Shown in pieces: positions 24,913 to 63,850 of a stretch of 64,000 bases of DNA. A program made the position numbers and the translations under genes. The first letter of the stretch is position 1. The number at the start of each line of letters is the position of its first letter. The stretch is from Nitrospirota bacterium (GTDB lineage: Bacteria > Nitrospirota > Nitrospiria > Nitrospirales > Nitrospiraceae), in contig NSIK01000016.1 in the NCBI GenBank assembly GCA_002737345.1, forward strand, positions 70,158 to 134,157, in the 5' to 3' direction. The notes under the pieces are model-generated. The model was given only the letters and a program-made list of their open reading frames with translations. It was not told the DNA's origin and did not search any database.

Positions 24913-24990
24913 CAGGATGCTGAAAAAGACCGCCAGCTTCGTTCTCAGCTCATCGAAATCCTCAATGTACCCCTGGGGGTACGCCTGCAC
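24913..24990 (+). repeat. Dispersed palindromic repeat family 1, left-half copy (R1)
   Basis: CAGGATGCTGAAAAAGACCGCCAGCTTCGTTCTCAGCTCATCGAAATCCTCAATGTACCCCTGGGGGTACGCCT. Confidence 0.85.
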
Positions 24991-25074
24991 TTTAAACTCT
25001 CGCGTAAACGTGCGTCGCGCCATGCCCCACCTCCGGTTTCATTCATACACCTAACTCGGTGTCTTTGAAACCGG
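24988..25074 (-). mobile_element. Truncated 5' remnant of an IS3-family orfA with upstream hairpin
   Basis: Reverse strand: ggagg RBS, ATG at 25023, reading MARRTFTREFKVQA (typical IS3 OrfA N-terminus) then running into repeat R1; hairpin CCGGTTTCA/TGAAACCGG at 25033-25074. Confidence 0.55.
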
Positions 25075-25122
25075 CAGCAGGCCACTTGTCATTTTACTTC
25101 TCTTGAAGAGGAAATGGGATAG

Positions 25123-26151
25123 TTAGGAGAGCAGATTTCCTGTCTGTTTGGTGAGGTTCTCCCGTGCAATTGAGACGTTGCGGAGAAGACCGCTCCGCTT
25201 GGCTCGTTTGAGGGGGCTCTCTTTGAAGGTGGCAGCAAAACTTTCCTCGCTGATCTGAGCCAGAGTTTTGAGGCTGGGGGCGAGGGTCAAGAGGCTGGGG
25301 GCAAAGGCCGGTTCGCTCGTTGCGTCCGATCGAAGATTGAAGGGACAGACGTCCAGACAATCGTCGCAGCCGAAGATGCGATTGCCCATGTGAGCAGCGA
25401 GTTCGTCGGAAATAACCTCCCGGCCTCCGCGCAGTTCGATGGTCAGGTAAGAGATGCAGCGCCTGGCATCGACGACATAGGGCTCGACGATGGCGCCGGT
25501 TGGACAAGCCTGAATGCAGAGGGTGCAGCTTCCGCAGAGATCCGTGGCCGGTTCATCTGGTTCCAGATCCAGAGTCGTGAGAATTTCTCCAAGCAGTAGC
25601 CAGGAGCCGGATTCGGCCGAGACGAGGTTGGAATGTTTGCCGATCCAGCCGAGGCCTGCCTGCTGGGCCCAGGCCTTTTCCATGATCGGGCCTGTATCGA
25701 CGTACGTCCTTGTGCCCACGCCTGGGGCCAAGGCCGCGATCTTGGCTTCGAGTTGCGAGAGCCGCTGGCTCATGACCGTATGGTAATCCTTTCCCCAGGC
25801 ATAACGGGCAATGCGGCCCATGCCAGGCTGCTCGTTCGCGCGGTTGTCCGTGTAGTAGTTCATCCCGACCGAGATCATCGAGCGACAGCCTGACAACACC
25901 AGCTGCGGATCGCTTCGTCGTGAAGGATCGCGAGTCATCCAGGCCATCGTGCCGTAGTAGCCTAGGCTCAGCCATTCCGTGAGACGGCTGAAGAGAAGCC
26001 TGGGCAAGGGGGTAGCGGGGTAAGGGGGCAAAGAAGACTTAGGCTGAGGGCTGAGGGTTGAAGGCTGATTACTGCCAGCCACTCGACTGATACCGACTGC
26101 GTCGAAGCCCAGCGAGAGGGCTTCGCGTTTGATGGCGTTAGCCAAAGACAT
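25123..26151 (-). CDS. queG: Epoxyqueuosine reductase
   Basis: GWIGKHSNLVS, LCGSCTLCIQACPTGAI, CDDCLDVCPFN (two 4Fe-4S motifs); start at 26151 preferred. Confidence 0.92.
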   Translation of the reverse strand: MSLANAIKREALSLGFDAVGISRVAGSNQPSTLSPQPKSSLPPYPATPLPRLLFSRLTEWLSLGYYGTMAWMTRDPSRRSDPQLVLSGCRSMISVGMNYYTDNRANEQPGMGRIARYAWGKDYHTVMSQRLSQLEAKIAALAPGVGTRTYVDTGPIMEKAWAQQAGLGWIGKHSNLVSAESGSWLLLGEILTTLDLEPDEPATDLCGSCTLCIQACPTGAIVEPYVVDARRCISYLTIELRGGREVISDELAAHMGNRIFGCDDCLDVCPFNLRSDATSEPAFAPSLLTLAPSLKTLAQISEESFAATFKESPLKRAKRSGLLRNVSIARENLTKQTGNLLS

Positions 26152-26153
26152 GG

Positions 26154-26519
26154 TTAGTGAGCTTGTTGGGAACAATCAAAACGGACAATAAACTGGACCG
26201 AGCAATGGTCGGATTTGCAGCGGCTGCAGGAGCCGGTGACTTTGGTTTTCCAGTCCGTGGCTCTGTCGTCGAATCGGCAGAAGGTTTTGCCGCCCTTGGA
26301 GATGGTTGTCCAGGGTTTGTCTGTGCCAGGGACATTGGCCACGAGGCAGCCACTGGGGAAGGGGACGTGACAGTTCTGCGAAGCCTCTCCCTTCGCCATC
26401 CCGAAACTGCAAGATTGCTCGGTGGTGGCGGTCGACTCGGAGAGGGATTGTGCCTGAGCCTCTGAGAACAAGCTCCAGAGGCTGATGAGCATGAACAATA
26501 TGAGGGGCCAGCGTTTCAT
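26154..26519 (-). CDS. Small secreted Cys-rich hypothetical protein
   Basis: Signal peptide MKRWPLILFMLISLWSLFSEAQAQ, multiple Cys in the mature part. Confidence 0.6.
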   Translation of the reverse strand: MKRWPLILFMLISLWSLFSEAQAQSLSESTATTEQSCSFGMAKGEASQNCHVPFPSGCLVANVPGTDKPWTTISKGGKTFCRFDDRATDWKTKVTGSCSRCKSDHCSVQFIVRFDCSQQAH

Positions 26520-26578
26520 CCTTGGCATCCTAGCACAGAGGGATTTAGATGCGTCAATCACGTTTCGGCCGTAGGAAG

Positions 26579-26606
26579 CTGACGGGCTTTTCAGCAGTCT
26601 GCTACT
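26579..26606 (-). repeat. Terminal fragment of repeat family 1 (R7)
   Basis: Reverse complement GTAGCAGACTGCTGAAAAGCCCGTCAG resembles AGCAGGATGCTGAAAAAG-CCGCC. Confidence 0.5.
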
Positions 26607-27780
26607 GAGGGAAGGTGAATTGGGACAGCTCAGCCTTGTCGAGGCCTTGCTTCACTAGCGCGTCGATATCGAATATTTGTTCGATTCTCAGGATGTCCTC
26701 GAGTCTGGTTTTCGTGCTGGGGTGGGGCGGGGTGAAGAGCGAGCAGCAATCTTGATCCGGCTCGATCGAGATGGCGAAGCTGCCGATCTGCTCAGCCTGG
26801 TCGGTGATCTCCAGCTTATCCATGCCGATGAGCGGACGTAGGAGCGGCAATTCTGCTGCCGCCTGGATAGCCGTCAGGTTCTCCGGTGTCTGTGACGCCA
26901 CCTGCCCCAAACTATCGCCCGTGACCAGTCCCCAACAATGTTCTTGTTTGGCTAACTCCTGCGCAATGCGGATCATGACGCGGCGGTAGAGCACTACGCG
27001 ATAGGGCGCTGGGGCGCTTGCCACAATGTCCCGTTGAATTTCCCCGAACGGGATGACATAGAGTTTCGACGTGTATTGATAGGCCGTGAGGAGCTGCACC
27101 AGTTCCCGGACCTTTTCCTCCGAGGCACGGCTTACGAACGGGCGGCCAGAGAAATGGACGAAGAGCGCCCGGCAGCCTCGCTTCATCATGCGATAGGCTG
27201 CGACCGGCGAATCGATTCCTCCGGAGATCAAACAGGCGACCTTCCCGCTGACCCCCACCGGCATTCCGCCAGGCCCCTGAATCTTTTTGATCGAGTAGTA
27301 GGCTTGTTTGGAGAGCAGTTCGAGATAGACCGTGAGGTCCGGATCCTTCAGGCTAACTTTCTTGCCGGTGGCCTCACAGACCGCGGTGCCGACGTCTCGC
27401 GCGACTTCCATCGAGGTCAGGATCAAACGTTTGTCGGCTCGTTTCGCCGAGATGCGAAAGGTGGAAAAAGATTCTGATCGGAGCGATTCGATGACCACCT
27501 GGGTGAGCGCTCCCAGGTCCGGGTGGGCCAGGTCGAGCGGCAACCCATGGGCGAGCGAAAAGTTGGCGATCCCGAAGACTCTGGTGAGCCGGTCGATGAT
27601 GGTCTGGTCCGGAATCCCGTCTGGCAGGACCACGCGAATCCGGCTGCGGAGATTCTCGACGCGTCTAACGCCGAGGTCTTTCAGCATCCATTGGATATTG
27701 CAGACGAGCCGTTCCTCGAAGTATTCGCGGTTGCGGCCCTTGAGGGCGATTTCGTGGTAGTGGACGATGGCGCAGCGCAC
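26602..27780 (-). CDS. thiI: tRNA 4-thiouridine sulfurtransferase (no rhodanese domain)
   Basis: THUMP region, LISGGIDSPVAAYRMMKRGC PP-loop, GDSLGQVASQTPENL. Confidence 0.94.
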   Translation of the reverse strand: MRCAIVHYHEIALKGRNREYFEERLVCNIQWMLKDLGVRRVENLRSRIRVVLPDGIPDQTIIDRLTRVFGIANFSLAHGLPLDLAHPDLGALTQVVIESLRSESFSTFRISAKRADKRLILTSMEVARDVGTAVCEATGKKVSLKDPDLTVYLELLSKQAYYSIKKIQGPGGMPVGVSGKVACLISGGIDSPVAAYRMMKRGCRALFVHFSGRPFVSRASEEKVRELVQLLTAYQYTSKLYVIPFGEIQRDIVASAPAPYRVVLYRRVMIRIAQELAKQEHCWGLVTGDSLGQVASQTPENLTAIQAAAELPLLRPLIGMDKLEITDQAEQIGSFAISIEPDQDCCSLFTPPHPSTKTRLEDILRIEQIFDIDALVKQGLDKAELSQFTFPQ

Positions 27781-27792
27781 AATTATCTACCG

Positions 27793-27914
27793 GGATGCTG
27801 AAAATGGCGACCAACAGTGTTCTCGGCTCGACATAATCCTCAACGTACCCCGAGGGTACGCCTCCGGTATGTGTCTCGCCTGCGGCCTTGTTGGGCGACC
27901 ACTTTGAGCATCCC
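27793..27914. repeat. Dispersed palindromic repeat family 1, full copy (R2)
   Basis: Ends GGATGCTGAAAATGGCGACCAAC / GTTGGGCGACCACTTTGAGCATCC; centre GTACCCCGAGGGTAC. Confidence 0.9.
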
Positions 27915-27922
27915 TGATGCCT

Positions 27923-28849
27923 TCATAAGCTGTGAGTAGGTGATTCGAGAAAACGCTCTACATCGATGGCGGCCATGCAGCCTGAGCCTGCTGCGGTGAC
28001 GGCTTGCCGGTACGTCGAGTCTTGGACGTCGCCAGCGGCAAACACACCGGGAATACTGGTCGTGGTTCCCTTCTCCGTCCGAATGTAGCCTTTCTCATCC
28101 ATGGAGATCTGTCCGGCAAAGAGCGCGGTGTTGGGGCGGTGCCCGATCGCGACAAAGACACCGGCGCAGGGCACTTCTGAGACTTTGCCGGTCACAAGGT
28201 TCTTTACGCTCACGCCTGTCACCAGGTCGGTGCCCAGAATATCTTCGATGGCGGAGTTCCAGAGGAAAGCAATTTTTTCGTTTTTCATCGCGCGATCCTG
28301 GAGGATCTTCGACGCGCGGAGTTTGTCGCGGCGGTGGACCACGGTGACCTTGCTGGCGAACTTGGTGAGGAAGGTGGCTTCCTCCATCGCACTGTCGCCG
28401 CCGCCGCCGACGATTAGCTCCTTGCCCTTGAAGAAAAATCCGTCGCAGGTGGCGCAGGTTGAGACTCCGTGCCCCGTGAGCCGCGCTTCGTTCTTCAAGC
28501 CGATTTGAATGGCCGATGCGCCGGTCGCAATGATGAGGGTCTTGGCCTGGAGAGTCTGTTTTGCGTCGATCGTGAGGGTGAAGGGCCTTCGTGCGAGCGT
28601 GACCTCTGTCACTTCGCCGGTCAGGAACTCCGTGCCGAATCGTTCCGCCTGCTTCCGCATCTCTTTCATCAGATCCGGGCCCATGATGCCCTTGGTAAAG
28701 CCGGGGTAGTTCTCGACCTCGGTCGTGGTGGTCAGTTGTCCACCCGATTGCCAGCCTTCGATGAGCAGGGGAGAGAGATTCGCCCGCGCTGCATAGATTG
28801 CGGCAGTGAGCCCGGCAGGCCCGGAGCCGATGATGACGACGTCGCGCAT
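27923..28849 (-). CDS. trxB: Thioredoxin-disulfide reductase
   Basis: IIGSGPAGLTAAIYAARANL, CATCDGFFFKGKE, GVFAAGDVQD. Confidence 0.96.
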   Translation of the reverse strand: MRDVVIIGSGPAGLTAAIYAARANLSPLLIEGWQSGGQLTTTTEVENYPGFTKGIMGPDLMKEMRKQAERFGTEFLTGEVTEVTLARRPFTLTIDAKQTLQAKTLIIATGASAIQIGLKNEARLTGHGVSTCATCDGFFFKGKELIVGGGGDSAMEEATFLTKFASKVTVVHRRDKLRASKILQDRAMKNEKIAFLWNSAIEDILGTDLVTGVSVKNLVTGKVSEVPCAGVFVAIGHRPNTALFAGQISMDEKGYIRTEKGTTTSIPGVFAAGDVQDSTYRQAVTAAGSGCMAAIDVERFLESPTHSL

Positions 28850-28900
28850 GGCGGAAACTTAACACAGCAGGCAGAGGGAATGCACGGAGCAGGAGAGGCG

Positions 28901-29503
28901 TTACGCGAGCAGGCGCAGGCGCGTGAATAACTGATTGACGTGTTTGCGGAGCGTCGGGCGGGGGAGGGTTCCATCCAGCACGTAGTCCGCTCGCCGGATT
29001 TTTTCAGCCAAGGGCATTTGGCTCTTGATGCGGTGCAGGGCGTCAGCACGGGGGAGACCGTTTCGTTTTTTGAGACGGGAAACCTGGGTCGTTTGGTCTG
29101 CTGTCACGACGATGGTTTCGTCGACGCGCTTGTCGATGCCGGCTTCGAAGAGCAAAGGCACATCGTACAGCACCACGGCATGAGGGTCTTGTTGTGCTGC
29201 CTGCTTCATCAGCCTGGCTTGCTCGCGGGCCACGCGGGGGTGAATGATGGCTTCCAGCACCAGGCGTTTTGCTGGATGGCGAAAGACGATGGCTCCGAGC
29301 ATGTGGCGATTGAGGCTGCGGTTAGGATTGAGGATGGCCTTGTCGAATGTTTTGACGATGGCTCGCCAAGCCGGTTTGCCCGGCTCGACGACCTGCCGCG
29401 CCAGCAGATCGGCATCGATCACGACCGCGCCGCATTGCTGGAACATCTTGGCAACGGTGCTTTTGCCGGTCGCGACGCCGCCTGTGAGGCCGATCACAAT
29501 CAT
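28901..29503 (-). CDS. coaE: Dephospho-CoA kinase
   Basis: VIGLTGGVATGKSTVAKMF, VVIDADLLARQVVEPG, VVLYDVPLLFEAG. Confidence 0.94.
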   Translation of the reverse strand: MIVIGLTGGVATGKSTVAKMFQQCGAVVIDADLLARQVVEPGKPAWRAIVKTFDKAILNPNRSLNRHMLGAIVFRHPAKRLVLEAIIHPRVAREQARLMKQAAQQDPHAVVLYDVPLLFEAGIDKRVDETIVVTADQTTQVSRLKKRNGLPRADALHRIKSQMPLAEKIRRADYVLDGTLPRPTLRKHVNQLFTRLRLLA

Positions 29504-29565
29504 AAGGCCGAGCATAGCACGCGAATGTGCGCCTCACAACAAACCACGTTTGACTTCCGGCGGGG

Positions 29566-30615
29566 ATGGGCTGTATGAATGGCTCCATGAAACAGCGGGT
29601 GGTGTTCGCTCTCATTGCGGCAATTGGAGTTTGGGGCTTCGGCTTCGTATGGGCCGACGAGGGGCCGCCGATGGGTCCCAGGACCATTGTCGTGGCGCTC
29701 GACGGGACAGGAGATTTCCAGTCCCTTCAAGAAGCGGTGGATGCCGCCAGGAAAGGCGACACCGTTTTCGTCAAGGCAGGCCGATATGCGCAGGATGTGA
29801 CCATTCACAGTAAAGAGAAGATCAAGTTCGTTGGGGCCGGCGTCGATCAGGTGACGATCCTGGGGCGCGACATCGTGGTGGGCGCGCTCCATGTGGGGAA
29901 GTGGCCCTATGGGGCGATGGACATTGAAATCAGCGATATGACCATCAACGATCATGGCGGCCATGCGGTCGGCCTGTTCAATGGGCAAGGGCTGGCCCTT
30001 CGCCGGCTCACCATCAACGGGATGCTGTTCAGCCAGCAGGTCCATGATGTGCGGATTGAAGACTGCCTCATCGGCGGGAGCGAAACGACCGGCGTGCAGC
30101 TTGTCGATTCAGAGGCGGTTATGGTTGGGAATGTCATCCATGATAATGACCATGGGGTTTCAATTGCCGGCAAGTCCAACGTGCGGTTGGAACGGAATAT
30201 CATTACACGGAGTCTGTTTGAAGCGGTGGTGGTCAGCGGCCATGCCCGTGCCGCGATCGTGAGCAATACCCTGGTCAAGAACGGCGGAGGAGCGGCATTT
30301 CTCGGGCAATCCCAGAGTGACGTCACCGGCAACGTGGTCGGGTTGAATGGAGTGGGTTTTCTGATCGCGCCCTCCAGTCAGACCAGTACGTCGTTTAATG
30401 CGTTCTACAACAGGGATGGGGATTATCTGCGGCCTGGCAGCCCGAACCAGCTGGCTCCGGAGCTCAAGGCCCTGTCAGATATTACCGGGGACCCCTCCTT
30501 TATTGACCCGGTGCATGACGATTTCCGCCTGCGTCTCGACACGCCGCTTCTCAAGATCGGTCGGTTTCCCTACCTTGGTGCCCTAGCCCCAGCTTCCAGC
30601 CCTGCTACGCGATAG
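29566..30615 (+). CDS. Secreted right-handed parallel beta-helix protein
   Basis: Signal peptide; ALDGTGDFQSLQEAVDAARKGDTVFVKAGRY and recurrent beta-helix rungs. Confidence 0.8.
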   Translation: MGCMNGSMKQRVVFALIAAIGVWGFGFVWADEGPPMGPRTIVVALDGTGDFQSLQEAVDAARKGDTVFVKAGRYAQDVTIHSKEKIKFVGAGVDQVTILGRDIVVGALHVGKWPYGAMDIEISDMTINDHGGHAVGLFNGQGLALRRLTINGMLFSQQVHDVRIEDCLIGGSETTGVQLVDSEAVMVGNVIHDNDHGVSIAGKSNVRLERNIITRSLFEAVVVSGHARAAIVSNTLVKNGGGAAFLGQSQSDVTGNVVGLNGVGFLIAPSSQTSTSFNAFYNRDGDYLRPGSPNQLAPELKALSDITGDPSFIDPVHDDFRLRLDTPLLKIGRFPYLGALAPASSPATR

Positions 30616-30771
30616 GTCAATAAACAGCATTGAATCAACGAGATACAGGCTTTCCGTCAGGCTAACTTTCTATGTGCTATGCTTGAAATCTAGCGTAAGC
30701 CGATGGATCATAATTTTCTAGCGTGGGAATTGCTCTATTCCTTCTGCAGCCAAACAAACAGGAGCGCGACC

Positions 30772-30957
30772 GTGGCAAGTTATCGACAAGAGCATGAAAA
30801 AACGGCAGGGGACGGAATCCCGTCTCTCGACGATATTGAATCAGGCAAGCTGGTGGGTGCCGTGCTGCCCATGTCAGAAAAGGCACAGATCCAAATGCGC
30901 AACAGTATCGAAGTCATCGATTATCTCCTCAATCAAGAACGCGTCATCTGGAGCTAG
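30772..30957 (+). CDS. Small hypothetical protein
   Basis: GTG start at 30772 with AGGAG upstream; MASYRQEHEKTAGDGIPSLDDIESGKLVGAVLPMSEKAQIQMRNSIEVIDYLLNQERVIWS. Confidence 0.5.
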   Translation: MASYRQEHEKTAGDGIPSLDDIESGKLVGAVLPMSEKAQIQMRNSIEVIDYLLNQERVIWS

Positions 30958-31075
30958 CAAGCTCTCGCGCTGTCCCTTCAATCAATCCCCGGATCCAGTG
31001 TGTCCCCTTGACAGGCCCGACGGGCCTTCGTACGCTCTCGCCAGACTGATTCATTTGCAACCACGAGATAGCCCC

Positions 31076-31588
31076 ATGGTATATGGCCACGCGCAGCATC
31101 GGCTTTCTGTTACTGTGGCCTGCCGTCAAGCGAGCTGGGGCTCTTTTGTGAGGGGGCTGGCGGGCCTCCTCCTGGTGGTGCTGACCGCCTGCAATAGCGA
31201 TGTGCCGGTGCCGGCTTCTGTCGAGTTTTCGGCAGATCAGGTGCGTTTGACGATCACCAGACTGGCCACCAATCCGTTTTTGTCCCGGCACGATCTTCAT
31301 CTCGCATTCGTCGGGCCAGGAGGCTGCTCTCTCGAGGAGGACCTGTTCCCCAATACCGGATATGCGAGCCGGCGGAACCTCTATTCGACGCGAACAGGGT
31401 TGCTCTATGTGGTGGGCCAGTTTGATGCCCGTGTCATCGATGCGCAGCATTGCACGATCACGCTGGCCGAGTTTCGCACCCTCGATCGCTACGTGACGTT
31501 TCTTGGTAGTTTCGATGAAAATGAGGAAAAGCGGTGGGGCTACTTTCCTGCCAGTCAGAGGTCTGAGCTCCCCTTTGAGAAACGGTGA
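31076..31588 (+). CDS. Small lipoprotein, unknown function
   Basis: GLLLVVLTAC lipobox; in-frame ATG at 31076 rather than 30794. Confidence 0.6.
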   Translation: MVYGHAQHRLSVTVACRQASWGSFVRGLAGLLLVVLTACNSDVPVPASVEFSADQVRLTITRLATNPFLSRHDLHLAFVGPGGCSLEEDLFPNTGYASRRNLYSTRTGLLYVVGQFDARVIDAQHCTITLAEFRTLDRYVTFLGSFDENEEKRWGYFPASQRSELPFEKR

Positions 31589-31809: not shown

Positions 31810-31827
31810 GGGCGCTGACCAACCGTT

Positions 31828-32472: not shown

Positions 32473-32597
32473 GTCGGCCTCCTCGCATTAGGGTACGCGA
32501 GCCGCAGCAGTCCTGACAAGCGGTCCATTAGACCTATTGGTGCATTGCCCCGATTGACACCCATGAGAGGAGTCCCCATGATATCCGGCATAGAACT

Positions 32598-33314: not shown

Positions 33315-33348
33315 CCATAACTTCGCGAGACGTGAAATCTAACAGAAC

Positions 33349-37227: not shown

Positions 37228-37229
37228 GC

Positions 37230-41514: not shown

Positions 41515-41646
41515 AACGCTCCGATATAGAGGGCCAGTATAGCGGAGTGCAGTTGCTCTCGGCCACAGGCATTCTAAGCTGGGTTGCTCGTCTTTTCGCG
41601 CGGAAGGGGTTTCGAGCCTGAAAAACCGCATGTTATAGTCGCAAGA

Positions 41647-43149
41647 ATGATGGAACCAGTTTCTGCTCTCAAAGAACCGAAAGAGTACCGTTCGTGGTGG
41701 CGTGAGACCTACGTGTCGCCGTTGCCCGGGGGCCAGCCAGGCCGATTTTCGCCCCTGGTGACGTGGCTGGCGGCCTTCGTACTCGTGGCGGCGTTGCTAT
41801 CGGTAGTTCTGCTCTCGGCTTCCTCCTCCAAGTTGGAGCGGGTCGAGGCGCCAGAGCAAGCCTTGAGTCTGATGGTCAGTCGGACCATGGATGCGCAAGA
41901 AGGACTGAAACGAGCGCCTCAATGGGAACGGCAGCTTTTTGCTTGGACCTCTGGCGGGAACGAGACGGAACAGGCCCATGCCATCGAATGGTATCGAGAG
42001 CTTGCGCGGGTCTCGACCGATCCGCTAGTGCCGCTGCAGTTGGCGATTCTTCAAGCCGAGGCAGGGCATGAGTCGCAGGCGCTCCTCTCCGCGCATGAGT
42101 GGGCTGATGCAGAGAATCCGTTGCCGCAGTTTGCCGATCTGGTACGGGCGGCCTATGGCGAAGGCGCGGGCCCTGACGCAGACCAGTATCTGGTGTGGCA
42201 AGCCGAGCTGGCCGCACTGTTGCCTTCCGGCTGGTTTTACGATCGTCTGGCTGAACGGCTGGCGCGGCGCGCCAACGATGCTGCGTTGCTATCCAGGATC
42301 CAGGAACAGGCGGTGGTGCGCGTCGATCGCCAATTTGTCTGGTTGCATCGCATCAGGCTTGTTGAACTTGGCGGGATGGTCGTCGGGACGGTGGTCTGTC
42401 TGCTGCTGTGGCTCACACGGAGCGAGTCGGCTCGTTTCGTCCGGCTCCATGAGCCGGGCGTGCCGCCTCCGTGGCCTGGCGCGCTGGGGGTGGCCGTGTT
42501 GCTGCGCGGGGGTGCGCTGGGGGCGATAGGCACGGCGCTGTTTTTGATCTACGCGTCGCCGGATAATGCTTCGCTTCGAGCTTTGGCCATTCCCCTGACC
42601 AATGTGCCCTTGCTTTTCTTGGCTTACCGGCACCTCTTCCGTCCGTCTGGCATGACGTTTGAAGAAGGGTTCGGCTTGGAAATCGGATGGGCGAATGTCG
42701 GACGTTTGATGGTTGTGGTCGTGGCGGTGGTGGCAGCAGGGCTCTGGGGCGAATGGGTGATGGAGCGGCTGTCAGAGCCGTTTCATTTGACGAGTCATTG
42801 GACTGAATGGTTCGATGCCGATCTAGTCTGGGGCTCGCCGGCCTTGACGGTCATTAGTGGCATCGAGTACGTGATTTTCGCGCCGCTGTTTGAGGAACTT
42901 GCCTTTCGCGGGATCTTGTTCGCGATCTTGCGCAGGAAGTTTTCTTTTCTGCCTGCTGCGCTGATCAGCGCCGGCATCTTCGCGATTGCCCATGGCTATG
43001 GATTGATCGGCTTCGTTAGCGTGCTCTGGAGCGGGCTGCTCTGGGCTTGGCTCTATGAAAAAACGGGGAGTCTGTGGCCGGGGATTTTGGCTCATGCCAT
43101 CAATAATTTGCTGGTGTGTCTCTCTGTGATGGCGCTGCTTCGCCTTTAG
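41647..43149 (+). CDS. CPBP-family intramembrane protease with large N-terminal helical ectodomain
   Basis: PLFEELAFRGILFAILRR (EExxxR), FAIAHGYG, HAINN; N-terminal TM then about 200 aa soluble region. Confidence 0.85.
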   Translation: MMEPVSALKEPKEYRSWWRETYVSPLPGGQPGRFSPLVTWLAAFVLVAALLSVVLLSASSSKLERVEAPEQALSLMVSRTMDAQEGLKRAPQWERQLFAWTSGGNETEQAHAIEWYRELARVSTDPLVPLQLAILQAEAGHESQALLSAHEWADAENPLPQFADLVRAAYGEGAGPDADQYLVWQAELAALLPSGWFYDRLAERLARRANDAALLSRIQEQAVVRVDRQFVWLHRIRLVELGGMVVGTVVCLLLWLTRSESARFVRLHEPGVPPPWPGALGVAVLLRGGALGAIGTALFLIYASPDNASLRALAIPLTNVPLLFLAYRHLFRPSGMTFEEGFGLEIGWANVGRLMVVVVAVVAAGLWGEWVMERLSEPFHLTSHWTEWFDADLVWGSPALTVISGIEYVIFAPLFEELAFRGILFAILRRKFSFLPAALISAGIFAIAHGYGLIGFVSVLWSGLLWAWLYEKTGSLWPGILAHAINNLLVCLSVMALLRL

Positions 43150-43274
43150 CAGGCTGGTGAAACGGTCCCCAAGGTCGGTCTCGGCTCATCGCAATCCTCA
43201 ACGCACCCTACGGGTACGCCTCCGGCTGCGACGACCCTGCGGCCTTGTTGGACGACCATTTTAACAAGCGTGCT
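43148..43274. repeat. Dispersed palindromic repeat family 1, full copy (R3)
   Basis: AGCAGGCTGGTGAAACGGTCC...CTCAACGCACCCTACGGGTACGCCTCCGGCTGC...GCGGCCTTGTTGGACGACCATTTTAACAAGCGTGCT; abuts the stop codons of both convergent genes. Confidence 0.85.
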
Positions 43275-51464: not shown

Positions 51465-51481
51465 GCAACGGAGCCGCCTCT

Positions 51482-51605
51482 AGCAGGATGCTGAAAAATA
51501 CCGCCAGCGGCGGTCTCGCTTCACGAAGAGGCTCAACGCACCACAAGGGTACGCCTCGACTCTTCGCTTGCTGCCGTCTTGCAGAGGGTATTTTTGAGCA
51601 TCTGA
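51482..51605. repeat. Dispersed palindromic repeat family 1, full copy (R4)
   Basis: AGCAGGATGCTGAAAAATACCGCCAGC...GGGTACGCCTCGACTC...GAGGGTATTTTTGAGCATCTGA. Confidence 0.9.
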
Positions 51606-51688
51606 TATGATTGAGGGCTCCATGCCATATGGCGTATGTCACTCAGGCTGTTCCTATACATCGAGTTTGTTAGATTGATGGGGGATCT

Positions 51689-52345
51689 GTGAACCGAATA
51701 CTTGAGCCGGAACTGATGGAGGACGATGCACAGGCCCAGGCTTATGCGGAGGCGGATTTTTCGCAAGAGAACCAGGGTTTCGTCGATCGCTTCCGCACAT
51801 CCTTTCCTGATTTCTTCGAGGGTCATGTCCTCGACCTTGGCTGTGGTCCTGGCGATATTCCTATTCGTTTTGCGCGCGCAATGCCTGGTTGTTTGGTGAT
51901 CGGTGTCGATGCGTCGGCCCCGATGGTGCAGTTGGCGGAGGAGGCGGTGCGGCAGGCGGGTCTGTCCGGTCGTATCACCTTTCTTTGTGAGCGTTTTCAA
52001 GCCGTTGCACTGAGTGAGCCGGCCGATGCCGCGATTTCCAATAGCCTGTTGCACCATGTGCCGAACCCCCTTCAGTTTTGGCATAAGCTGAGATTGGCGG
52101 TAAAGCCCGGCTCGCCGGTGCTGGTGATGGATCTCTTGAGGCCTGAGTCGCCGGAAGAGGCGCAGGCCATCGTTGATTTGCATGCTTCCAAGGCGCCGGA
52201 CATCCTGAGGAGAGATTTTTACAACTCGCTGCTTGCAGCCTTTACGGAAGATGAGGTGGCGGCGCAGTTGGCGGAAATGAATTTGAGCCGGTTGATGATT
52301 GATGTGCCGGATGGCCGGCATTGGGTGGTCGGAGGGCTTGTCTAG
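51689..52345 (+). CDS. Class I SAM-dependent methyltransferase
   Basis: VLDLGCGPGDIPIRFARAMPGCLVIGVDAS, ISNSLLHHVPNP. Confidence 0.9.
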   Translation: MNRILEPELMEDDAQAQAYAEADFSQENQGFVDRFRTSFPDFFEGHVLDLGCGPGDIPIRFARAMPGCLVIGVDASAPMVQLAEEAVRQAGLSGRITFLCERFQAVALSEPADAAISNSLLHHVPNPLQFWHKLRLAVKPGSPVLVMDLLRPESPEEAQAIVDLHASKAPDILRRDFYNSLLAAFTEDEVAAQLAEMNLSRLMIDVPDGRHWVVGGLV

Positions 52346-52390
52346 ACGTCAGGATGGTGGAAGCTACCACCAACTTCTTTCTCCTCTCGG
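52346..52390 (+). repeat. Degenerate end fragment of repeat family 1 (R8)
   Basis: CAGGATGGTGGAAGCTACCACCAACTTCTTTCTCCTCTCGG. Confidence 0.35.
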
Positions 52391-54712: not shown

Positions 54713-54723
54713 GGAGTCTTCCT

Positions 54724-54790
54724 AGCAGACGGCTGCAAGCTATGGTGGTATGCGAGAACAAAGCTGGCGGACTTTTTCCGCATCCTGCTA
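54724..54790 (-). repeat. Dispersed palindromic repeat family 1, short copy (R5)
   Basis: Reverse complement TAGCAGGATGCGGAAAAAGTCCGCCAGCTTTGTTCTCGCATACC. Confidence 0.8.
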
Positions 54791-55591
54791 TGTCGGGAGA
54801 AAGTAGAAATGATTTGTTGGTCCCGTTCCGTGGCCGATCGCCAAACTATGGCGAATAGCTTCAGTGAGATAGGTTTTAGCCGATTGAACCGCATCGTTCA
54901 CCGATTTGCCGCGGGCGAGATGGGCGGCGATGGCCGAGGCCAGCGTGCAGCCAGTGCCGTGCGTGTGGGGAGTGTCGATGAACTCTCCCTTGAACACATT
55001 GAAGAACCGGCCGTCATAGAGCAGGTCGGTAGCCCGTTCCGCCAGCAAATGGCCGCCCTTGATCAGCACATATTTGCAGCCGAATCCGTGGATGATTTTG
55101 GCGGCGCGGCGCGCGTCGGCGAGCGTTTTGATTTCAAGGCCGGACAGTTGCTGCGCCTCATGGATGTTCGGCGTGACGAGCAGCGCCAAAGGGAAAAGCT
55201 GCTTTTTCATGGCGTCAATCGCTTCCGGCTTGAGCAGGGCCTGGCCGGTCTTCGAGATCATCACCGGGTCTACGACGAGATTCGTGACATTCTGGGGCCT
55301 CAGGAGTTTCGCGACGGTCTCAACAATCGCCATCGAGGAAAGCATGCCAGTCTTTACTGCGGCGACGTCGAAATCCTGGAAGACCGCATCAATTTGCGCC
55401 GCGACGATCGAGGTCGGCAACTCAAAGACGTCGGTGACCTTTTCCGTATTCTGCGCGGTGACGGCGGTAATCACCGACATGGCAAAGACGCCGTTGGCCG
55501 ACATGGATTTGATATCGGCCTGGATGCCCGCGCCTCCACCGGAATCGGAGCCGGCAATGGCCAAGACTTGTTTGATCGATGTTGTGTTCAT
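54788..55591 (-). CDS. thiD: Hydroxymethylpyrimidine/phosphomethylpyrimidine kinase
   Basis: AIAGSDSGGGAGIQADIKSMSANGVFAMSVITAVTAQNT, VDPVMISKTG, IDTPHTHGTGCTLASAIAAHLA. Confidence 0.95.
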   Translation of the reverse strand: MNTTSIKQVLAIAGSDSGGGAGIQADIKSMSANGVFAMSVITAVTAQNTEKVTDVFELPTSIVAAQIDAVFQDFDVAAVKTGMLSSMAIVETVAKLLRPQNVTNLVVDPVMISKTGQALLKPEAIDAMKKQLFPLALLVTPNIHEAQQLSGLEIKTLADARRAAKIIHGFGCKYVLIKGGHLLAERATDLLYDGRFFNVFKGEFIDTPHTHGTGCTLASAIAAHLARGKSVNDAVQSAKTYLTEAIRHSLAIGHGTGPTNHFYFLPT

Positions 55592-56775: not shown

Positions 56776-56848
56776 GCGGATATTCCTTTCGCGTTCGATT
56801 GGGCGACGGCAACCATTTTCGCAAGCGAGGGGGCTGGCGCTTGTGCCG

Positions 56849-57841: not shown

Positions 57842-59768
57842 CCGTCTTTACGTTGTCCCCTTCGGCGACCAGGATGGCGGTGACTTTTCCGTCAATCGGT
57901 GCCGGGACCTGGCTTTCCATCTTCATGGCTTCGATGATCAGGAGAGGGGTCCCAGTTGTTACCAGGGCACCGACTGCGACCAGCACCTTGACGACTCGCC
58001 CCGGCATCGGGGGGGCCACGTCGCCAGGCTTGGAGGGCCTGGGCCGTTTGCGTTTGGCATTGGTGCCAGCCTTGGGGGCTGTAGGCAGGCCGGCTAGAAC
58101 CTCCTGAATTGGTTCGAGCGAGACCTCTTCAAGTTTATCGTTGACCCGGATGTAGTAGGGTTTGCGTCCGTCGACTTTCCGCCCGGACCCTGAGACCTTT
58201 ACATGGTAGGTCTCGCCGTGGACCGTGACATTGAATTCTGCTGGGGCCAAATGGAGTTCGGTGGCCGTGGCAGGCCCGTGGGGCGAGAAGCTCTCGAGCG
58301 GCGCCAGCGCCAGATCTCCCTTTTCACGCGCTTCGAAAAAGTCTCGCGCGATGGCAGGGAAGAGGGTGAAGGAGAGCTGATCTTCCACTGTGGTCGCCGA
58401 GGCTGGCAGATCTTTTTTGATGGCTTCGAGTTCCGGCTCCAGCCGATCGGCTGGCCTGGTCTTGATCGGCTGTTCGTTTCCGATCGCGCGGGCCATGATA
58501 TCGAGATTGACCTGTCCCGGCGCCCGCCCGTAGAGTCCGAGGAAGTAGTTTTTCGTTTCCGTGGTAATGACTTTGTATCGCTCGCCCGTCAGGACGTTGA
58601 GCGTGGCTTGGGTGCCTACGATCTGGCTGGTCGGGGTGACGAGCGGGGGATAGCCCATGTCCTTGCGGACGCGCGGCACTTCATCCAGGACTTCTTTGAT
58701 CCGATCGAGCGCATTCTGCTCGGTCAGTTGCGCCGCGAGGTTCGAGAGCATCCCGCCGGGAATCTGCGAGGTGAGGATCTCGGCATCGACGCCGGTGAAC
58801 TCGCTTTCGAACTGCCGGTACTTTCGCCGCACGGTCCGGAAATGCTCGGTAATCGGAAGGAACGAGGCCAGGTCTAGGCCCGTATCGTACGGCGTGTTGC
58901 GCAGCGAGGCCACCACGGTTTCCGTTGCGGGATGCGAGGTGCCGCCGGCCAAGGGGGAGATGGAGGTATCCAACATGTCCAGGCCGCCGAGGATCGCCAT
59001 GAGGGAGGTCATCGAGGCCATGCCGGAGGTGTAGTGCGAGTGTAAATGGACTGGGACCTTCACGGCGGCTTTGATGCGGCGGACGAGGTGATAGGCGTCG
59101 AGCGGCGCCAGAAGACCGGCCATGTCTTTGATGCAGAGAGTGTTGGTCCCCAGGTCTTCCAATTTTTTCGCCATGTCGACGAACCGGTCGATGCTGTGGA
59201 CGGGACTGATGGTATAGCTGATGGCGGCTTCAACATGTTTGCCGCAGGCCTTCACTTCCCTCATGGCCCGTTCGAGATTGCGGATATCGTTCAGCGCGTC
59301 GAAGATGCGGAAGACGTCGATGCCATTAGTGGCGGACCGTTCGATGAACCGTTCCAGCACATCGTCAGCATAATGCCGGTAGCCGACCAGGTTCTGCCCG
59401 CGGAGCAGCATTTGGAGCTTGGTATTGGGCATGGCGGCGCGTAGCGCGCGGAGCCGCTCCCAGGGATCTTCTTTGAGGAAACGCAGGCAAGTATCAAAGG
59501 TGGCGCCGCCCCAGACCTCCAGCGACCAATAGCCGACGGCGTCGAGTTTCTTGGCGATCGGCAGCATGTCTTCCGTCCGCATGCGCGTAGCCAGAAGCGA
59601 CTGATGGCCGTCGCGCAAGGCGACCTCGGTAATCAGGAGGGGCTTGCCTGGCGCCGGTTGGATGGTCAGCTCAGGGCTGACCTTGGCGCGGGCCTTCGAT
59701 GTCCGGACGGCTGGGCTGGCGGTCCGTTTTTTGGAAGCCTGCTTTTTCGAGGGTCGTCGTGTCGCCAT
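57816..59768 (-). CDS. 2-oxoacid carboxylase/decarboxylase carboxyltransferase subunit with biotinyl domain
   Basis: ITEVALRDGHQSLLATRMRTEDM, KDMAGLLAPLDAYHLV, C-terminal LLIIEAMKMESQVPAPIDG. Confidence 0.92.
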   Translation of the reverse strand: MATRRPSKKQASKKRTASPAVRTSKARAKVSPELTIQPAPGKPLLITEVALRDGHQSLLATRMRTEDMLPIAKKLDAVGYWSLEVWGGATFDTCLRFLKEDPWERLRALRAAMPNTKLQMLLRGQNLVGYRHYADDVLERFIERSATNGIDVFRIFDALNDIRNLERAMREVKACGKHVEAAISYTISPVHSIDRFVDMAKKLEDLGTNTLCIKDMAGLLAPLDAYHLVRRIKAAVKVPVHLHSHYTSGMASMTSLMAILGGLDMLDTSISPLAGGTSHPATETVVASLRNTPYDTGLDLASFLPITEHFRTVRRKYRQFESEFTGVDAEILTSQIPGGMLSNLAAQLTEQNALDRIKEVLDEVPRVRKDMGYPPLVTPTSQIVGTQATLNVLTGERYKVITTETKNYFLGLYGRAPGQVNLDIMARAIGNEQPIKTRPADRLEPELEAIKKDLPASATTVEDQLSFTLFPAIARDFFEAREKGDLALAPLESFSPHGPATATELHLAPAEFNVTVHGETYHVKVSGSGRKVDGRKPYYIRVNDKLEEVSLEPIQEVLAGLPTAPKAGTNAKRKRPRPSKPGDVAPPMPGRVVKVLVAVGALVTTGTPLLIIEAMKMESQVPAPIDGKVTAILVAEGDNVKTDETVIQLD

Positions 59769-59821
59769 GATGTCCTGGTCTTCTCGTTATCCTGTCAGCG
59801 GGTGGATAGACGGCTGTATGG

Positions 59822-61240
59822 CTACAGCCCTTCGTAGGCGGCGATGGCGGCGGAGAGCGCCAGCACCAGATCCTCTGGTTGCTCGAATTCATGGTAGTTG
59901 AAGAGCGCTGGATGCGTGTCTAAGTAAGAGGTGTCGAACCGTCCTGCCATGAAGTCCTCTTCCTGCATGATTTCCTTCATGAAGGGGATCGTCGTCTTGA
60001 CCCCGCGCAAGACATATTCTTCGAGCGAGCGTCTCATGCGGCTGACGGTTTCTTCCCAGGTGCGGCCGCGCACGGTGAGTTTGGCCAGGAGGGCGTCGTA
60101 GTAGGGCGGCACCACATAGTCTTTGTAGACCGCCCCGTCGATGCGCACGCCGATCCCGCCTGGCGAGAGATAGGCGGTAATCGTGCCGGCGCAAGGGCGG
60201 AAGTTATTCTTGGGGTCTTCGGCGTTGATGCGGCATTGGATGGAATGGCCTTGGAGCGTGACTTGCTGTTGGGTAATGTCGAGCGGCTTGCCCGCGGCAA
60301 TAGCGATTTGATTGCGCACGATGTCGATCGCCGTGATTTGTTCCGTCACGGTGTGTTCGACCTGGAGGCGCGGGTTCATCTCGATAAAGTAATAGCGTCC
60401 GTCCTGATCGAGGAGGAACTCGACGGTGCCGGCATTGTCGTAATCGACCGCTTTGGCGATGGTGATAGCCGCGTCACCCATTTCGGCGCGCAGTTGCGGC
60501 GTCAGAATCAGTGAGGGGGCGATTTCGATGAGCTTTTGGTGCCGGCGCTGGATCGAGCAATCCCGCTCACCTAGGTGGATGATATTGCCATGCCGGTCGG
60601 CCAGAATCTGGAATTCGATGTGATGAGGCCGCTCGATATATTTTTCAAGAAAGATGCTGCCATCGCCGAAGGAGGCGTGAGCCTCCCGTGAGGCGACCGC
60701 CATATTCTCGAGAAGTTCAGCATCGGACCGCACGACCCGAAGGCCGCGGCCTCCCCCGCCTGCGCTGGCTTTGATCATGACGGGGTAGCCGGTTTTTTTC
60801 GCAAAGGCCAAGGCTTCGTTGGCGTCGGTGACGTCGCCCTCTGTGCCTGGGACGATTGGGACTCCGACCCGCTTGGCTAGCTCGCGCGCTTTAACTTTGC
60901 TGCCCATCAAATCGATAGCATGGGGCGAGGGGCCGATGAAGGTTACGCCGGAGGTCTCGCAGAGTTGTGCGAATTGGGTATTTTCCGAGAGAAATCCATA
61001 GCCTGGATGGATGGCATCGGCGCCGATCCGTAGGGCCAGGTCGACGATCTGTTTGCTGTCCAGGAAGCCTTTGACCGGTCCGGGCCCGACCATATAGGCT
61101 TCGTCCGCTTTTTTGACGTAGATGCCGGTCGAATCGGCTTCGGAGTAGATGGCAGCGGTGGCGATATTCAATTCACGGCAGGCGCGGATAATCCGCATGG
61201 CGATTTCGCCGCGATTAGCCACCAGAATTTTCTTGAACAT
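59822..61240 (-). CDS. Biotin carboxylase subunit
   Basis: MFKKILVANRGEIAMRIIRACRELNIATAAIYSEAD, GGGGRGLRVV, FIEMNPRLQVEHTVTE. Confidence 0.95.
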   Translation of the reverse strand: MFKKILVANRGEIAMRIIRACRELNIATAAIYSEADSTGIYVKKADEAYMVGPGPVKGFLDSKQIVDLALRIGADAIHPGYGFLSENTQFAQLCETSGVTFIGPSPHAIDLMGSKVKARELAKRVGVPIVPGTEGDVTDANEALAFAKKTGYPVMIKASAGGGGRGLRVVRSDAELLENMAVASREAHASFGDGSIFLEKYIERPHHIEFQILADRHGNIIHLGERDCSIQRRHQKLIEIAPSLILTPQLRAEMGDAAITIAKAVDYDNAGTVEFLLDQDGRYYFIEMNPRLQVEHTVTEQITAIDIVRNQIAIAAGKPLDITQQQVTLQGHSIQCRINAEDPKNNFRPCAGTITAYLSPGGIGVRIDGAVYKDYVVPPYYDALLAKLTVRGRTWEETVSRMRRSLEEYVLRGVKTTIPFMKEIMQEEDFMAGRFDTSYLDTHPALFNYHEFEQPEDLVLALSAAIAAYEGL

Positions 61241-61369
61241 GCCGGTCCTTATTCCTCGGATCGCTGCTAATTTTTGCGAGTGTTCTCAGCTGAAAATGAG
61301 GACGTAAACTAGCATAGAATCAAGAGTCTTGTCGAGGGAGTGAGGATGGGAATGGGGCTGATTGGGGAG

Positions 61370-61402
61370 GCCAGAGGCGCGGCACTGTGCCGCGCCTCTG
61401 GC
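61370..61402. terminator. Perfect 15-bp stem hairpin downstream of the IPT/TIG gene
   Basis: GCCAGAGGCGCGGCA-CTG-TGCCGCGCCTCTGGC; no T-tract. Confidence 0.6.
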
Positions 61403-61420
61403 GGAGATTATCCGATTCCG

Positions 61421-61879
61421 TTACTTGGCTTGGACGAGGAATCCTTTTGAACGGGCATTGCCGCCGCCGGCGACCACATCGATGAACGACATGCCTGCCC
61501 GGACGTCAGGAACCGTGGCTTCGATGGTGCTATCGTTGACGAAGGTGTAGTCGATTTTGGCTGGCCCAGCCGCGCTAAAGGCCACCCCGTGGAAACATTC
61601 CTTAGCCCCGAAATTTTCGCCTTTGATGGTCACCTTCTGTCCAGGCTTGGCTTCGTCCGGCTCGACCCTGAAGATCTTGGGCCGTTTACTCCGATCGCAG
61701 ACCGGGTCCCGCTCGACTTTCGCCGTATCGGACCCCTTGATGGATTCAGTTCCGTAGAGGGTGAAGCCTGCGCCATCCACCATCGCGCCTGGTTCCTCCG
61801 CAGAGACGAGGGGGAGGGCTAACGTGATGGATCCGATGAGGCCTAGGAGCATGAACCACAATGATTGCCGTATCTGCAT
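61421..61879 (-). CDS. Secreted IPT/TIG-domain protein
   Basis: Signal peptide MQIRQSLWFMLLGLIGSITLALPLVSA; PKIFRVEPDEAKPGQKVTIKGENFGAKE...VNDSTIEATVPD; start at 61879. Confidence 0.75.
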   Translation of the reverse strand: MQIRQSLWFMLLGLIGSITLALPLVSAEEPGAMVDGAGFTLYGTESIKGSDTAKVERDPVCDRSKRPKIFRVEPDEAKPGQKVTIKGENFGAKECFHGVAFSAAGPAKIDYTFVNDSTIEATVPDVRAGMSFIDVVAGGGNARSKGFLVQAK

Positions 61880-61910
61880 AGGTACCTCCTTGAAGAGCAA
61901 CGACATCTGA

Positions 61911-62732
61911 CTATTTCTCGTTGATGGGGATGTAGGTGTCGGCCATGAGTTGTTGCCCTGCCTGGGACAGGGCAAACTGAATGAAGGCCTCAGCCAGGGG
62001 ATGGGGCTCCTTCTTGGACAGGAGGAGGACCGGGCGCTTGAGCGGATAGCGACCGTCCTTGACGGTGGGGCCTTCCGGCTCGACCTTGTCGATGGATAGG
62101 AGTTTGACCGCGACGCCGCTCGCGACAACGGACAAGCCCTGACTGAGAGACAGGTAGGCGACCGCAGCCAGGGGAGGCAGGGTTCCCACGACAGTCTTGA
62201 TGACCTGTTCATCTGGGCCGATCACCTTCGCGCTGTTGGTTATCTTGCCGGTAATGCCCAGCTGCGATTCAAAGGCCTCGCGGACGTTTTGGTTGCGAGG
62301 CCGGTCGATGACTAATATTTTCGTATCAAGCCCGCCGAGTTCTGACCATAGCGTGATTTTGCCGGAGAAAATGTCGGCAGCCTGTTGTTTCGTCAGCTCT
62401 TTCGTGAGATTGGAGAGATGCACGAGAATGCCGATGCCATCCCACGCGATGGGCGTTGCCGCGAGATCCTGGGCTGCCGTTCCCGTGACGGCAATGTGGG
62501 CCTGGCCAGACTTGACCATCTCAACCGGACGCGAATTGCCGTCCCAGACCACATCGAGATAGGCGCGAGGGTTGGCTTTTTCAAAGGCGCGGGCGAGGGG
62601 TTCGATGGTCGTCAGTTCCGGTCCGTTGCCGGCGATGATCAGGTTCCCGGCGAATTCTGCCAGGACGAAAGGGGCCATGCCCCAGCTAAAGAGAAGGCTG
62701 AGGCCTAGCGCGAGGGCGAGTCTCGCGATCAT
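61911..62732 (-). CDS. PstS-like periplasmic phosphate-binding-type protein
   Basis: Signal peptide; LIIAGNGPELTTIEPLARAFEKANPRAYLDVVWDGNSRPVEMVKSGQAHIAVTG; start at 62732. Confidence 0.8.
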   Translation of the reverse strand: MIARLALALGLSLLFSWGMAPFVLAEFAGNLIIAGNGPELTTIEPLARAFEKANPRAYLDVVWDGNSRPVEMVKSGQAHIAVTGTAAQDLAATPIAWDGIGILVHLSNLTKELTKQQAADIFSGKITLWSELGGLDTKILVIDRPRNQNVREAFESQLGITGKITNSAKVIGPDEQVIKTVVGTLPPLAAVAYLSLSQGLSVVASGVAVKLLSIDKVEPEGPTVKDGRYPLKRPVLLLSKKEPHPLAEAFIQFALSQAGQQLMADTYIPINEK

Positions 62733-62805
62733 GGGTGCTCCATAGGGTTGGGGTGGATATTGGGAAGGGGTGGCTGTGCGAGGGCCTGCCATTCCACGGT
62801 CTAGC

Positions 62806-63114
62806 TCAGTGCTCCGTGACGCCGCCGGTGGAAGCGTCTGGCGGTGCGGCAGTCTCGGGGGCGGCACGTTTGCCGGTCAACGGCGGAAGTTTGGCAAATT
62901 TGTCCATCCGCTCGTCCAGCATGTTGTAGGCTTTTTGTTCAGCAAAGCCGGTTTTGTGGGTGCCTTTGACCAAGGTCGTGCTGGCGGACATGAGCCGCGT
63001 GGCCTCCTGGGCGCTGCAATGAGGGCAGACGGTGTCTTCAACTCTGGCATGGACTGATTGGGTAGCGTCGAACTGCTTCTCGCATTTTCCACAACGATAT
63101 TCGTAGATCGGCAT
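62806..63114 (-). CDS. FmdB-family zinc ribbon protein
   Basis: MPIYEYRCGKCEKQFDATQS...CPHCSAQEATRLMS. Confidence 0.92.
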   Translation of the reverse strand: MPIYEYRCGKCEKQFDATQSVHARVEDTVCPHCSAQEATRLMSASTTLVKGTHKTGFAEQKAYNMLDERMDKFAKLPPLTGKRAAPETAAPPDASTGGVTEH

Positions 63115-63192
63115 GATTGATATCCTTCACGCGGGATAAAAGCCGGACAAAGAGAGGCAGTGCTCTTGACCAGCCGTTGAGCTTTGCCTTAT

Positions 63193-63211
63193 TGTACACA
63201 TCTTGTAGACA
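63193..63211. promoter_or_regulatory. Direct repeat TGTACACA-TCT-TGTAGACA (11-bp period)
   Basis: Between divergent FmdB-type and small ORF genes. Confidence 0.3.
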
Positions 63212-63242
63212 TGACTTCTAGTGGCTGAAGAGGAGGGTTTCG

Positions 63243-63419
63243 ATGCCCCTGTTGATTCGGAAGTACAAAAGTGTCAGTGGAATGATGCAGGAAGAGCGGA
63301 TTGACGATGAGGATCGGATCGCGCGCTATATGAAGCTCTTCGACAAGGACGATATCAAGAAGCTCGAGACCGGTGTGAAGGTCTTCATTGAGAAGGACGA
63401 GTGGCAACTCCTGCCGTAA
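63243..63419 (+). CDS. Small ORF, 58 aa, not in the supplied ORF track
   Basis: MPLLIRKYKSVSGMMQEERIDDEDRIARYMKLFDKDDIKKLETGVKVFIEKDEWQLLP; upstream GAGGAGGG. Confidence 0.6.
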   Translation: MPLLIRKYKSVSGMMQEERIDDEDRIARYMKLFDKDDIKKLETGVKVFIEKDEWQLLP

Positions 63420-63505
63420 GCTGTCTCAAGCATTGACGAGACATCCTCGTAGATTGCATCGGAATCTGATCGTGGCCGCGAATGCGGTCAAGCCCTGAAC
63501 GGTAA

Positions 63506-63526
63506 AAATGGGGCTCGGCCCCATTT
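63506..63526. terminator. 9-bp hairpin AAATGGGGC-TCG-GCCCCATTT
   Basis: Perfect inverted repeat between small ORFs. Confidence 0.5.
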
Positions 63527-63547
63527 GGTCTGAAAGGCGTGGTTGCT

Positions 63548-63757
63548 ATGACCTATTGGATTCACATCGCGCGGTCGATCGATCGAGTCACGCTCCATAA
63601 GGATCGTTGCGGGGAGGTGCCGTCGTCGACGATCGGATCTTCCAGCGATTTCTGGGAGGGCGGATGGTTCGACTATCCGGATAAGGAGCGAGCCGTAGCC
63701 GCGATGGAGAAGGCAGGGACGTCGGATCAGCGGCGCTGCGTTCTGTGCAAGGCGTAA
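63548..63757 (+). CDS. Small hypothetical protein
   Basis: MTYWIHIARSIDRVTLHKDRCGEVPSSTIGSSSDFWEGGWFDYPDKERAVAAMEKAGTSDQRRCVLCKA; start at 63548 preferred. Confidence 0.55.
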   Translation: MTYWIHIARSIDRVTLHKDRCGEVPSSTIGSSSDFWEGGWFDYPDKERAVAAMEKAGTSDQRRCVLCKA

Positions 63758-63850
63758 CAGGATGCTGGAACAGTCCTCCAGCATCGTTCTCGTCTCGAAT
63801 GTATCCTCAAGGTTTGCGGCTACCCCCCGGTGCGTGTATCGGCTGCGGCC
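63758..63850 (+). repeat. Degenerate copy of repeat family 1 (R6)
   Basis: CAGGATGCTGGAACAGTCCTCCAGCATCGTTCTCGTCTCG...TCCTCAAGG...CGGCTGCGGCC. Confidence 0.6.

Follow-up and report, generated by a model that had tools for sequence, protein, structure and literature searches.

A dispersed hairpin repeat of Nitrospira: copies behind stop codons and ends shared with an IS5-family element

Copies of the repeat in the window and beyond it

The window analysed here comprises 64,000 nucleotides of contig NSIK01000016.1 of a Nitrospirota bacterium (assembly GCA_002737345.1) and carries, next to genes such as mutS2, thiI and trxB, six copies (R1 to R6) of a palindromic repeat as well as some fragments thereof (Table 1). 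All six had been named in a sequence-only reading of the window and are present close to where it had put them. Judged by their sequences, these repeats are genuine representatives of a small DNA element, folded and mobile, that is spread over the Nitrospira phylum and of which the placement at stop codons, the partner in the IS5 family of insertion sequences (IS) and the phylum-wide range are newly recognised. The interpretation to which we give a probability of roughly 0.6 is that they were left long ago by a mobile, non-autonomous hairpin, which in the genus would be moved by IS5 as a miniature inverted-repeat transposable element (MITE) of ~205 bp, would accumulate at stop codons and would have its arms matched at the DNA level, the copies in the host now being fossils.

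The core of the repeat is an imperfect palindrome of ~125 bp. From its outer arms inwards it has an internal loop that is asymmetric, with CGTTCTCG facing CTGCGGCCTTG, then an inner stem and, at the tip, the hairpin CAACGTACCC..GGGTACGCC. With a covariance model built from 112 copies, including R3 and R4 of the window and, through L001, R2, scores well above chance were obtained for R1, R2, R3, R4 and R6, the E-values of this model being rough. While R1, R5 and R6 had been taken for partial or degenerate copies, R1 and R6 are matched by the model over their full length and are therefore degenerate full-length copies and not fragments, and R5 is an internally deleted mini-element on the minus strand. 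The fragment proposed at 26579-26606 indeed corresponds to the initial ~30 nt of a copy on the minus strand, and the one at 52346-52390 is present, but weak. The claim that all copies are intergenic has to be qualified for R4, which overlaps an unassigned open reading frame (ORF; 51533-52321) that is probably not a gene. At the site of R2 a copy is also found in L090:20431-20557 (RSF8) and none at the thiI-trxB junction in L098 and L101; at the site of R3 a second copy is present in L251.

That further copies should exist had been set as a test, and many were found in the host, the genus, the class and the phylum. In the host genome (1.67 Mb in 38 contigs, 92% complete) there are 28 copies by BLASTN at E<=1e-3 and 61 matches of the covariance model at E<=0.01, a few of which are the same place on both strands. 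All of the same-genus relatives searched (24/24) carry the repeat, with 46-334 first-look candidates per genome, and at E<=1e-6 the model detects it in 125 of 147 genomes and 35 of 42 genera in the class-level scan, and in 46 of 118 genomes and 17 of 50 genera in the phylum-level scan. A plasmid search with the repeat gave no match, Rfam holds no family matching it, and no description of a Nitrospira repeat family was found in the open-licence literature. The host is itself a Nitrospira, and the matches of the MutS2 encoded in the window include N. lenta-labelled metagenome-assembled genomes and Nitrospira CG24A and CG24C. Nitrospira species are major oxidisers of nitrite and ammonia; in each genome, dozens to hundreds of genes have their 3' end changed by the element.

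In one complete genome of the host's family, tandem cores lie 5-8 bp apart (G075:C1:2715578-2715833, in L295, and G075:C1:423837-424086), and several copies with identical model scores suggest recent amplification there. The element looks modular in that some cores have a longer or replaced central hairpin or an extra GGCGCGTCTCGGCGCGCC right-arm hairpin (L143:5475-5670, L140:15155-15334, G012:C8:341690-341861).

Table 1. Copies and fragments of the repeat in the window, with strand and model scores
Feature	Position	Strand	Description
R1	24908-25036	+	CTAG 24908-24911 (TAG is the mutS2 stop), then degenerate core 24913-25036; model 44 bits, E 2.8e-8
Fragment	26574-26604	-	thiI stop TAG 26602-26604, then CAGACTGCTGAAAAGCCCGTCAGC, the initial ~28 nt of a copy
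R2	27791-27915	+	Complete core, antisense to its two neighbours trxB and thiI; model 113 bits
R3	43146-43272	+	TTAG and core (model match 43150-43272, 92 bits)
R4	51480-51604	+	CTAG 51480-51483 and core (51484-51604, 85 bits); GAAGAGGC/GCCTCTTC subfamily
Variable right module behind R4 (relic)	51605-51681	+	Has TACATCGAGTTT, like TACACCGAGTTTTTCCGCAGCCTG of intact copies; by eye, weak
Weak fragment	52342-52390	+	CTAG (end of possible ORF 51689-52345), then ACGT and CAGGATGGTGGAAG
R5	54722-54791	-	Mini-derivative (internal deletion) that has kept the two terminal repeats: CTAG, 62 bp, CTAT
R6	63754-63878	+	GTAA and degenerate core 63758-63878; model 43 bits

The probable transposing unit and its IS5-family partner

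Alignment of the copies with their flanks shows that conservation extends past the 125-bp unit. The best-preserved copies in the genus are MITEs of ~205 bp in which YTAR and CAGG... are followed by the hairpin, a variable tail, TTTTTCCGCAGCCTG and again YTAR, the full unit reading YTAR, CAGGATGCTGAAAAA, core of ~125 bp, variable tail of ~76 bp, GTTTTTCCGCAGCCTG, YTAR. The ~125-bp unit described from the window thus stands as the core hairpin, but in this genus it is often merely the left part of the longer element. With <=4 mismatches and a distance from the core of up to ~120 bp allowed, the right terminal repeat was found in 22 of 122 copies as compared to one in a reversed control. No conserved ORF was seen in the alignments of the ~205-bp element, which at a length below ~300 bp fits a non-coding MITE. 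Other sequences behind stop codons (L089:5960-6100, L103, L090:12479-12660) have the head TAR-N-CAGGATGCTGAAAAA in common but different bodies, which suggests that several MITE families use the same IS5-type ends. In addition, a second, unrelated intergenic repeat (e.g. GCTCGCGCAACGCGCGGTCGCGGACTCCCCTCGTTGGACGCGCGCA) often adjoins the element tails or lies within them (L030, L039, L090 and a stretch of G001).

The same ends as those of the repeat are found on a complete IS of ~1.33 kb in L219, the product of which is an IS5-family transposase of 366 aa (NCBIfam NF033581, 280.6 bits at a cut-off of 140; also PF05598 and PF01609) flanked by CTAG, CAGGCTGCGGAAAAAC..GTTTTTCCGCAGCCTG, CTAG. The search for an autonomous element by end-pair spacing in 1.2 Mb of relatives had yielded none, and it was found via PF01609 and PF13751 loci instead. 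Homologues of the IS5 transposase occur in 10 of 32 congeners, in most cases bordered left and right by ends recognisable as YTAG, CAGG...; a second type of IS end, CAGGCTGTTGACAAAC, is also present on variants of the repeat. At the right end MITE and IS are identical over ~17 nt, while at the left end CAGGATGCTGAAAAA of the MITE compares with CAGGCTGCGGAAAAAC or CAGGCTGTTGACAAAC of the IS. It is only the 205-bp form that was found to have its terminal inverted repeats in common with an autonomous IS; as far as can be told from sequence, this form is an IS5-derived MITE by definition, a class in which the 125-bp form is not placed.

With respect to mobility, the left and right 4-mers are identical in 14 of 22 copies, among them CTAA/CTAA twice and TTAG/TTAG, against 8.9 after shuffling (P=0.002). 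The proposed check for empty sites gave an occupied/empty pair, L094 having CTAG-element-CTAG where L093 has a single CTAG, and at this site L106 has an insertion of the core plus ~80 bp. Of the suggested transposition by palindromic ends, the mobility is accordingly borne out by YTAR duplications and the occupied/empty pair, but the ends are terminal repeats of IS5 type, of which the right one lies ~76 bp past the unit. In the genus, the transposing unit would consist of the core and the variable ~76-bp tail, bounded by IS5-family terminal repeats, and would insert into YTAR sites, mostly CTAG, duplicating 4 bp. Matching ends, duplications and the empty site point to an IS5 transposase as the enzyme that would catalyse this transposition in trans.

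RUP of pneumococcus and other IS-derived MITEs are comparable in that they are small, non-autonomous and have terminal repeats in common with a resident IS. The partner of RUP is of the IS630 type, whereas that of the repeat is of the IS5 family with CTAG as target, and the interior fold of the repeat covaries. As mobilisers of the repeat, both an IS630 (DDE_3) partner and RAYT/Y1 were rejected, having no matching ends or being absent from copy-rich genomes. Structured MITEs of 100-160 bp with short and long forms, location near genes and filled as well as empty sites are also known as Correia/NEMIS in Neisseria (PMC2229807). Their ends and transposase are different, and cleavage of their RNA by RNase III has been proposed.

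The repeat also resembles REP/REPIN with RAYT, where high-copy extragenic palindromes, some of them close behind stop codons (PMC12306157), are mobilised by a Y1 transposase. However, PF01797 was found in 19 of 41 genomes and is absent from the host, the 99%-complete G001 and other copy-rich genomes, and a unit of 125-205 bp with IS5-type ends is unlike the 20-40-nt GTAG/CGTC-tagged REPs, which makes such a system very improbable here.

Several observations weigh against transposition by IS5 as set out above. A recognisable right end is kept in a minority of the copies, the others having unrelated sequence in its place even where the core hardly departs from the consensus. Neither the host nor copy-rich G001 (99% complete) has an IS5 homologue, and none of the four transposase families searched was found in G001. 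Compared to the empty site in L041, L038 has a core-only insertion of ~130 bp without YTAR duplication, and no convincing IS5 right end was found at the cores of five distant genomes. Because of this insertion and of cores lacking the IS right end elsewhere, IS5 transposition is not the whole explanation. As to the host, none of the tested transposase families was found in its genome, so that its copies have the appearance of fossils, and since there is no IS5 homologue and the copies are <=86% alike to each other, they look old. They would accordingly be remnants left after any IS5 relative or other tested transposase had gone.

The distant cores, taken from five genomes of four families, one of which is the host's own, keep CGTTCTCG, the ..ACGTAC../..GTACGC.. 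tip and CTGCGGCC. Their terminal arms are wholly different between copies and matched within a copy (GCGGGCG/CGCCCGC, AAGACTGCT/AGCAGTCTT), and in 20 of about 29 a stop codon is found at most 10 nt ahead of the left end or 1 nt beyond it, usually no more than 2 nt away. Together with the core-only insertion in L038, these cores keep in play the reading that a core recognised by its fold is older than the IS5 ends. The 125-bp core might then be the ancestral mobile unit, placed behind stops by a non-IS5 mechanism (e.g. as a folded single strand), with the IS5-ended 205-bp form as a secondary hitch-hiker. The distant cores with their missing IS right end, copy-specific matched arms and placement at stop codons would fit this, as would the absence of a duplication in L038 and of the tested transposases from copy-rich G001. 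However, no mobiliser was found for such a unit, the distant copies may be old IS5-type MITEs with decayed tails, and their outer arms often still resemble IS5-type ends (CAGGCTGTTGAAAAAG); an ancestral core is unlikely. We consider it quite unlikely, too, that the element is an ancient Nitrospirota-wide mobile hairpin recognised by its fold and loops instead of by terminal sequence, and placed in sense directly behind stops, one arm being regenerated from the other, which would give each copy its own matched arms, and IS5 ends having been captured in some lineages only.

Placement behind stop codons

The position of the left end was evaluated for 122 copies, based on simple ORF gene calls and with orthologous copies counted separately. 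In 58 of them a gene reads into the element and the left end lies exactly at, or one base after, the stop codon of this gene, and in 84 the element is in sense orientation with the stop codon within 0-13 nt of its left end. A gene reads into the left end from upstream in 40 of the 54 copies contained in the window and 1.2 Mb from three relatives. In the window this applies to R1 (mutS2), R3 (TAG 43147-43149 of the CPBP-protease gene 41584-43149), R5 (minus-strand TAG 54788-54790 of the phosphomethylpyrimidine-kinase gene) and the thiI fragment. The stop codons at left ends comprise TAG, TAA and TGA, and right ends are found at stop codons more rarely than left ends (3 against 10 of 23, small numbers). 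If all allowed YTAR sites outside coding sequence were used alike, 9-17%, or about 12%, would be expected at stop codons.

As element-free orthologous genes end at the same codon, for instance mutS2 of L098, which is without the R1 element, the stop codon predates the element, and a donation of the stop codon by the element was rejected. Likewise rejected was the scarcity of CTAG in genes as the sole cause, given that stop-overlapping sites make up ~9-17% of the allowed YTAR sites. CTAG itself is about five times rarer in the window and L108-L167 than base composition predicts (988 against about 4700). The accumulation is probably due to TAG and TAA stops being YTAR sites and to insertions just behind a gene being harmless, and given the enrichment above the null it is likely that, in addition, insertion at gene ends in sense is preferred. 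What detracts from this account is that the enrichment is in part survivorship, TAR being kept where it is a stop codon and decaying elsewhere. The phylum-wide hairpin population provides a natural experiment on how a mobile element ends up at stop codons.

In turn, sense orientation at 0-13 nt from the stop in 84 of 122 copies would also suit a functional REP- or ERIC-like structure of mRNA 3' ends that is selected behind stops and modulates translation termination or mRNA decay. In E. coli, REPs stall ribosomes when they lie within 15 nt of the stop codon (PMC12306157), and ERIC affects the stability of upstream transcripts (PMC2229807). ERIC/IRU of enterobacteria (127 bp) also resembles the repeat in its near-equal length and as an imperfectly palindromic, intergenic, dispersed and MITE-like element with TA-containing termini (PMC2229807); the two are not known to be related in sequence, and unlike ERIC as described, the repeat has 4-bp YTAR duplications, IS5-type ends, a ~76-bp tail, the placement at stop codons and a phylum-wide range. 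The differences in presence and absence between species and the lack of an Rfam family speak against such a function, and so does part of the evidence from the fold.

Complementarity of the arms

The copy-specific matching of the arms noticed in the window is confirmed by arm-duplex energies and explicit pair counting. Both were used in place of RNAalifold, the consensus of which for 112 copies (9 pairs only) is uninformative because the inner stem shifts register between subfamilies. The energy of a copy's own outer arms is -17.7, compared to -13.2 for shuffled arms and -14.1 when an arm is combined with that of the relatives nearest in the remainder of the element; against these relatives the own arms are better in 96 cases and worse in 15 (p 3e-15). 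Own pairing is superior for the inner arms as well, hardly so for the middle segment and not for the tip. In the structure of 34 pairs, 221 double-changed cells keep the pairing, against 55.5 (standard deviation 7.8) after shuffling and 47-72 after sliding; the arm covariation proposed as a test is far above the shuffled, slid and nearest-relative controls.

Where two genomes carry a copy at the same site, 36 double changes keep pairing, with about 7 expected, and there are 97 breaks of pairing, with about 160 expected. These pairs may include independent re-insertion at one site. Both figures are in favour of the mRNA structure considered above, as are compensatory changes in the stem generally. 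However, some same-site pairs simply lose the fold (L163/L257), several orthologous copies doing so (L257, L249), and G-U is not preferred to A-C on the transcribed strand: there are 55 G-U against 132 A-C, or 44 against 73 once helix 2, where a single inherited variant prevails, is left out. The maintenance of a fold advocated by the sequence-only reading therefore holds for arm pairing but not for RNA behaviour of the sense strand, and a function in mRNA appears unlikely. The lack of a G-U excess points to a DNA hairpin or copying by template switching instead of selection on sense-strand RNA, and A-C exceeding G-U together with a persistent G-G mismatch favours a DNA-level process, from which we conclude with moderate confidence that the arm matching arises.

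Under the preferred reading, the arms of each copy would stay complementary through Watson-Crick double changes, most likely by hairpin-templated arm copying in replication, by a need for an extruded hairpin in mobility, or by both. It is conceivable, though not probable, that the matching is wholly a by-product of template switching at quasi-palindromes, with no selection for structure. Template switching homogenises the arms of inverted repeats (PMC8604942), double transversions lacking wobble intermediates are common in the repeat, and changes on one side are missing at columns 6/131 (83 A-U, 20 C-G), while columns 65/75 have 97 C-G and 11 G-C. Yet the G-G mismatch at columns 12/126 is present in 106 of 112 copies, the asymmetric loops are more conserved than the arms, and tip pairs are no better within a copy than with its nearest relatives. 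The mismatch and the conserved loops, which pure template copying leaves unexplained, count against the preferred reading as well. The matched-arm hairpins of the phylum constitute a natural experiment on which of the two, selection or template switching, keeps the arms complementary.

Apart from the repeat, the window has four tandem 15-bp units (TTCTTGGTCGGTGCTTTTTT-like) in an ORF at 13392-13471, which probably encode a lysine/alanine-rich protein repeat.

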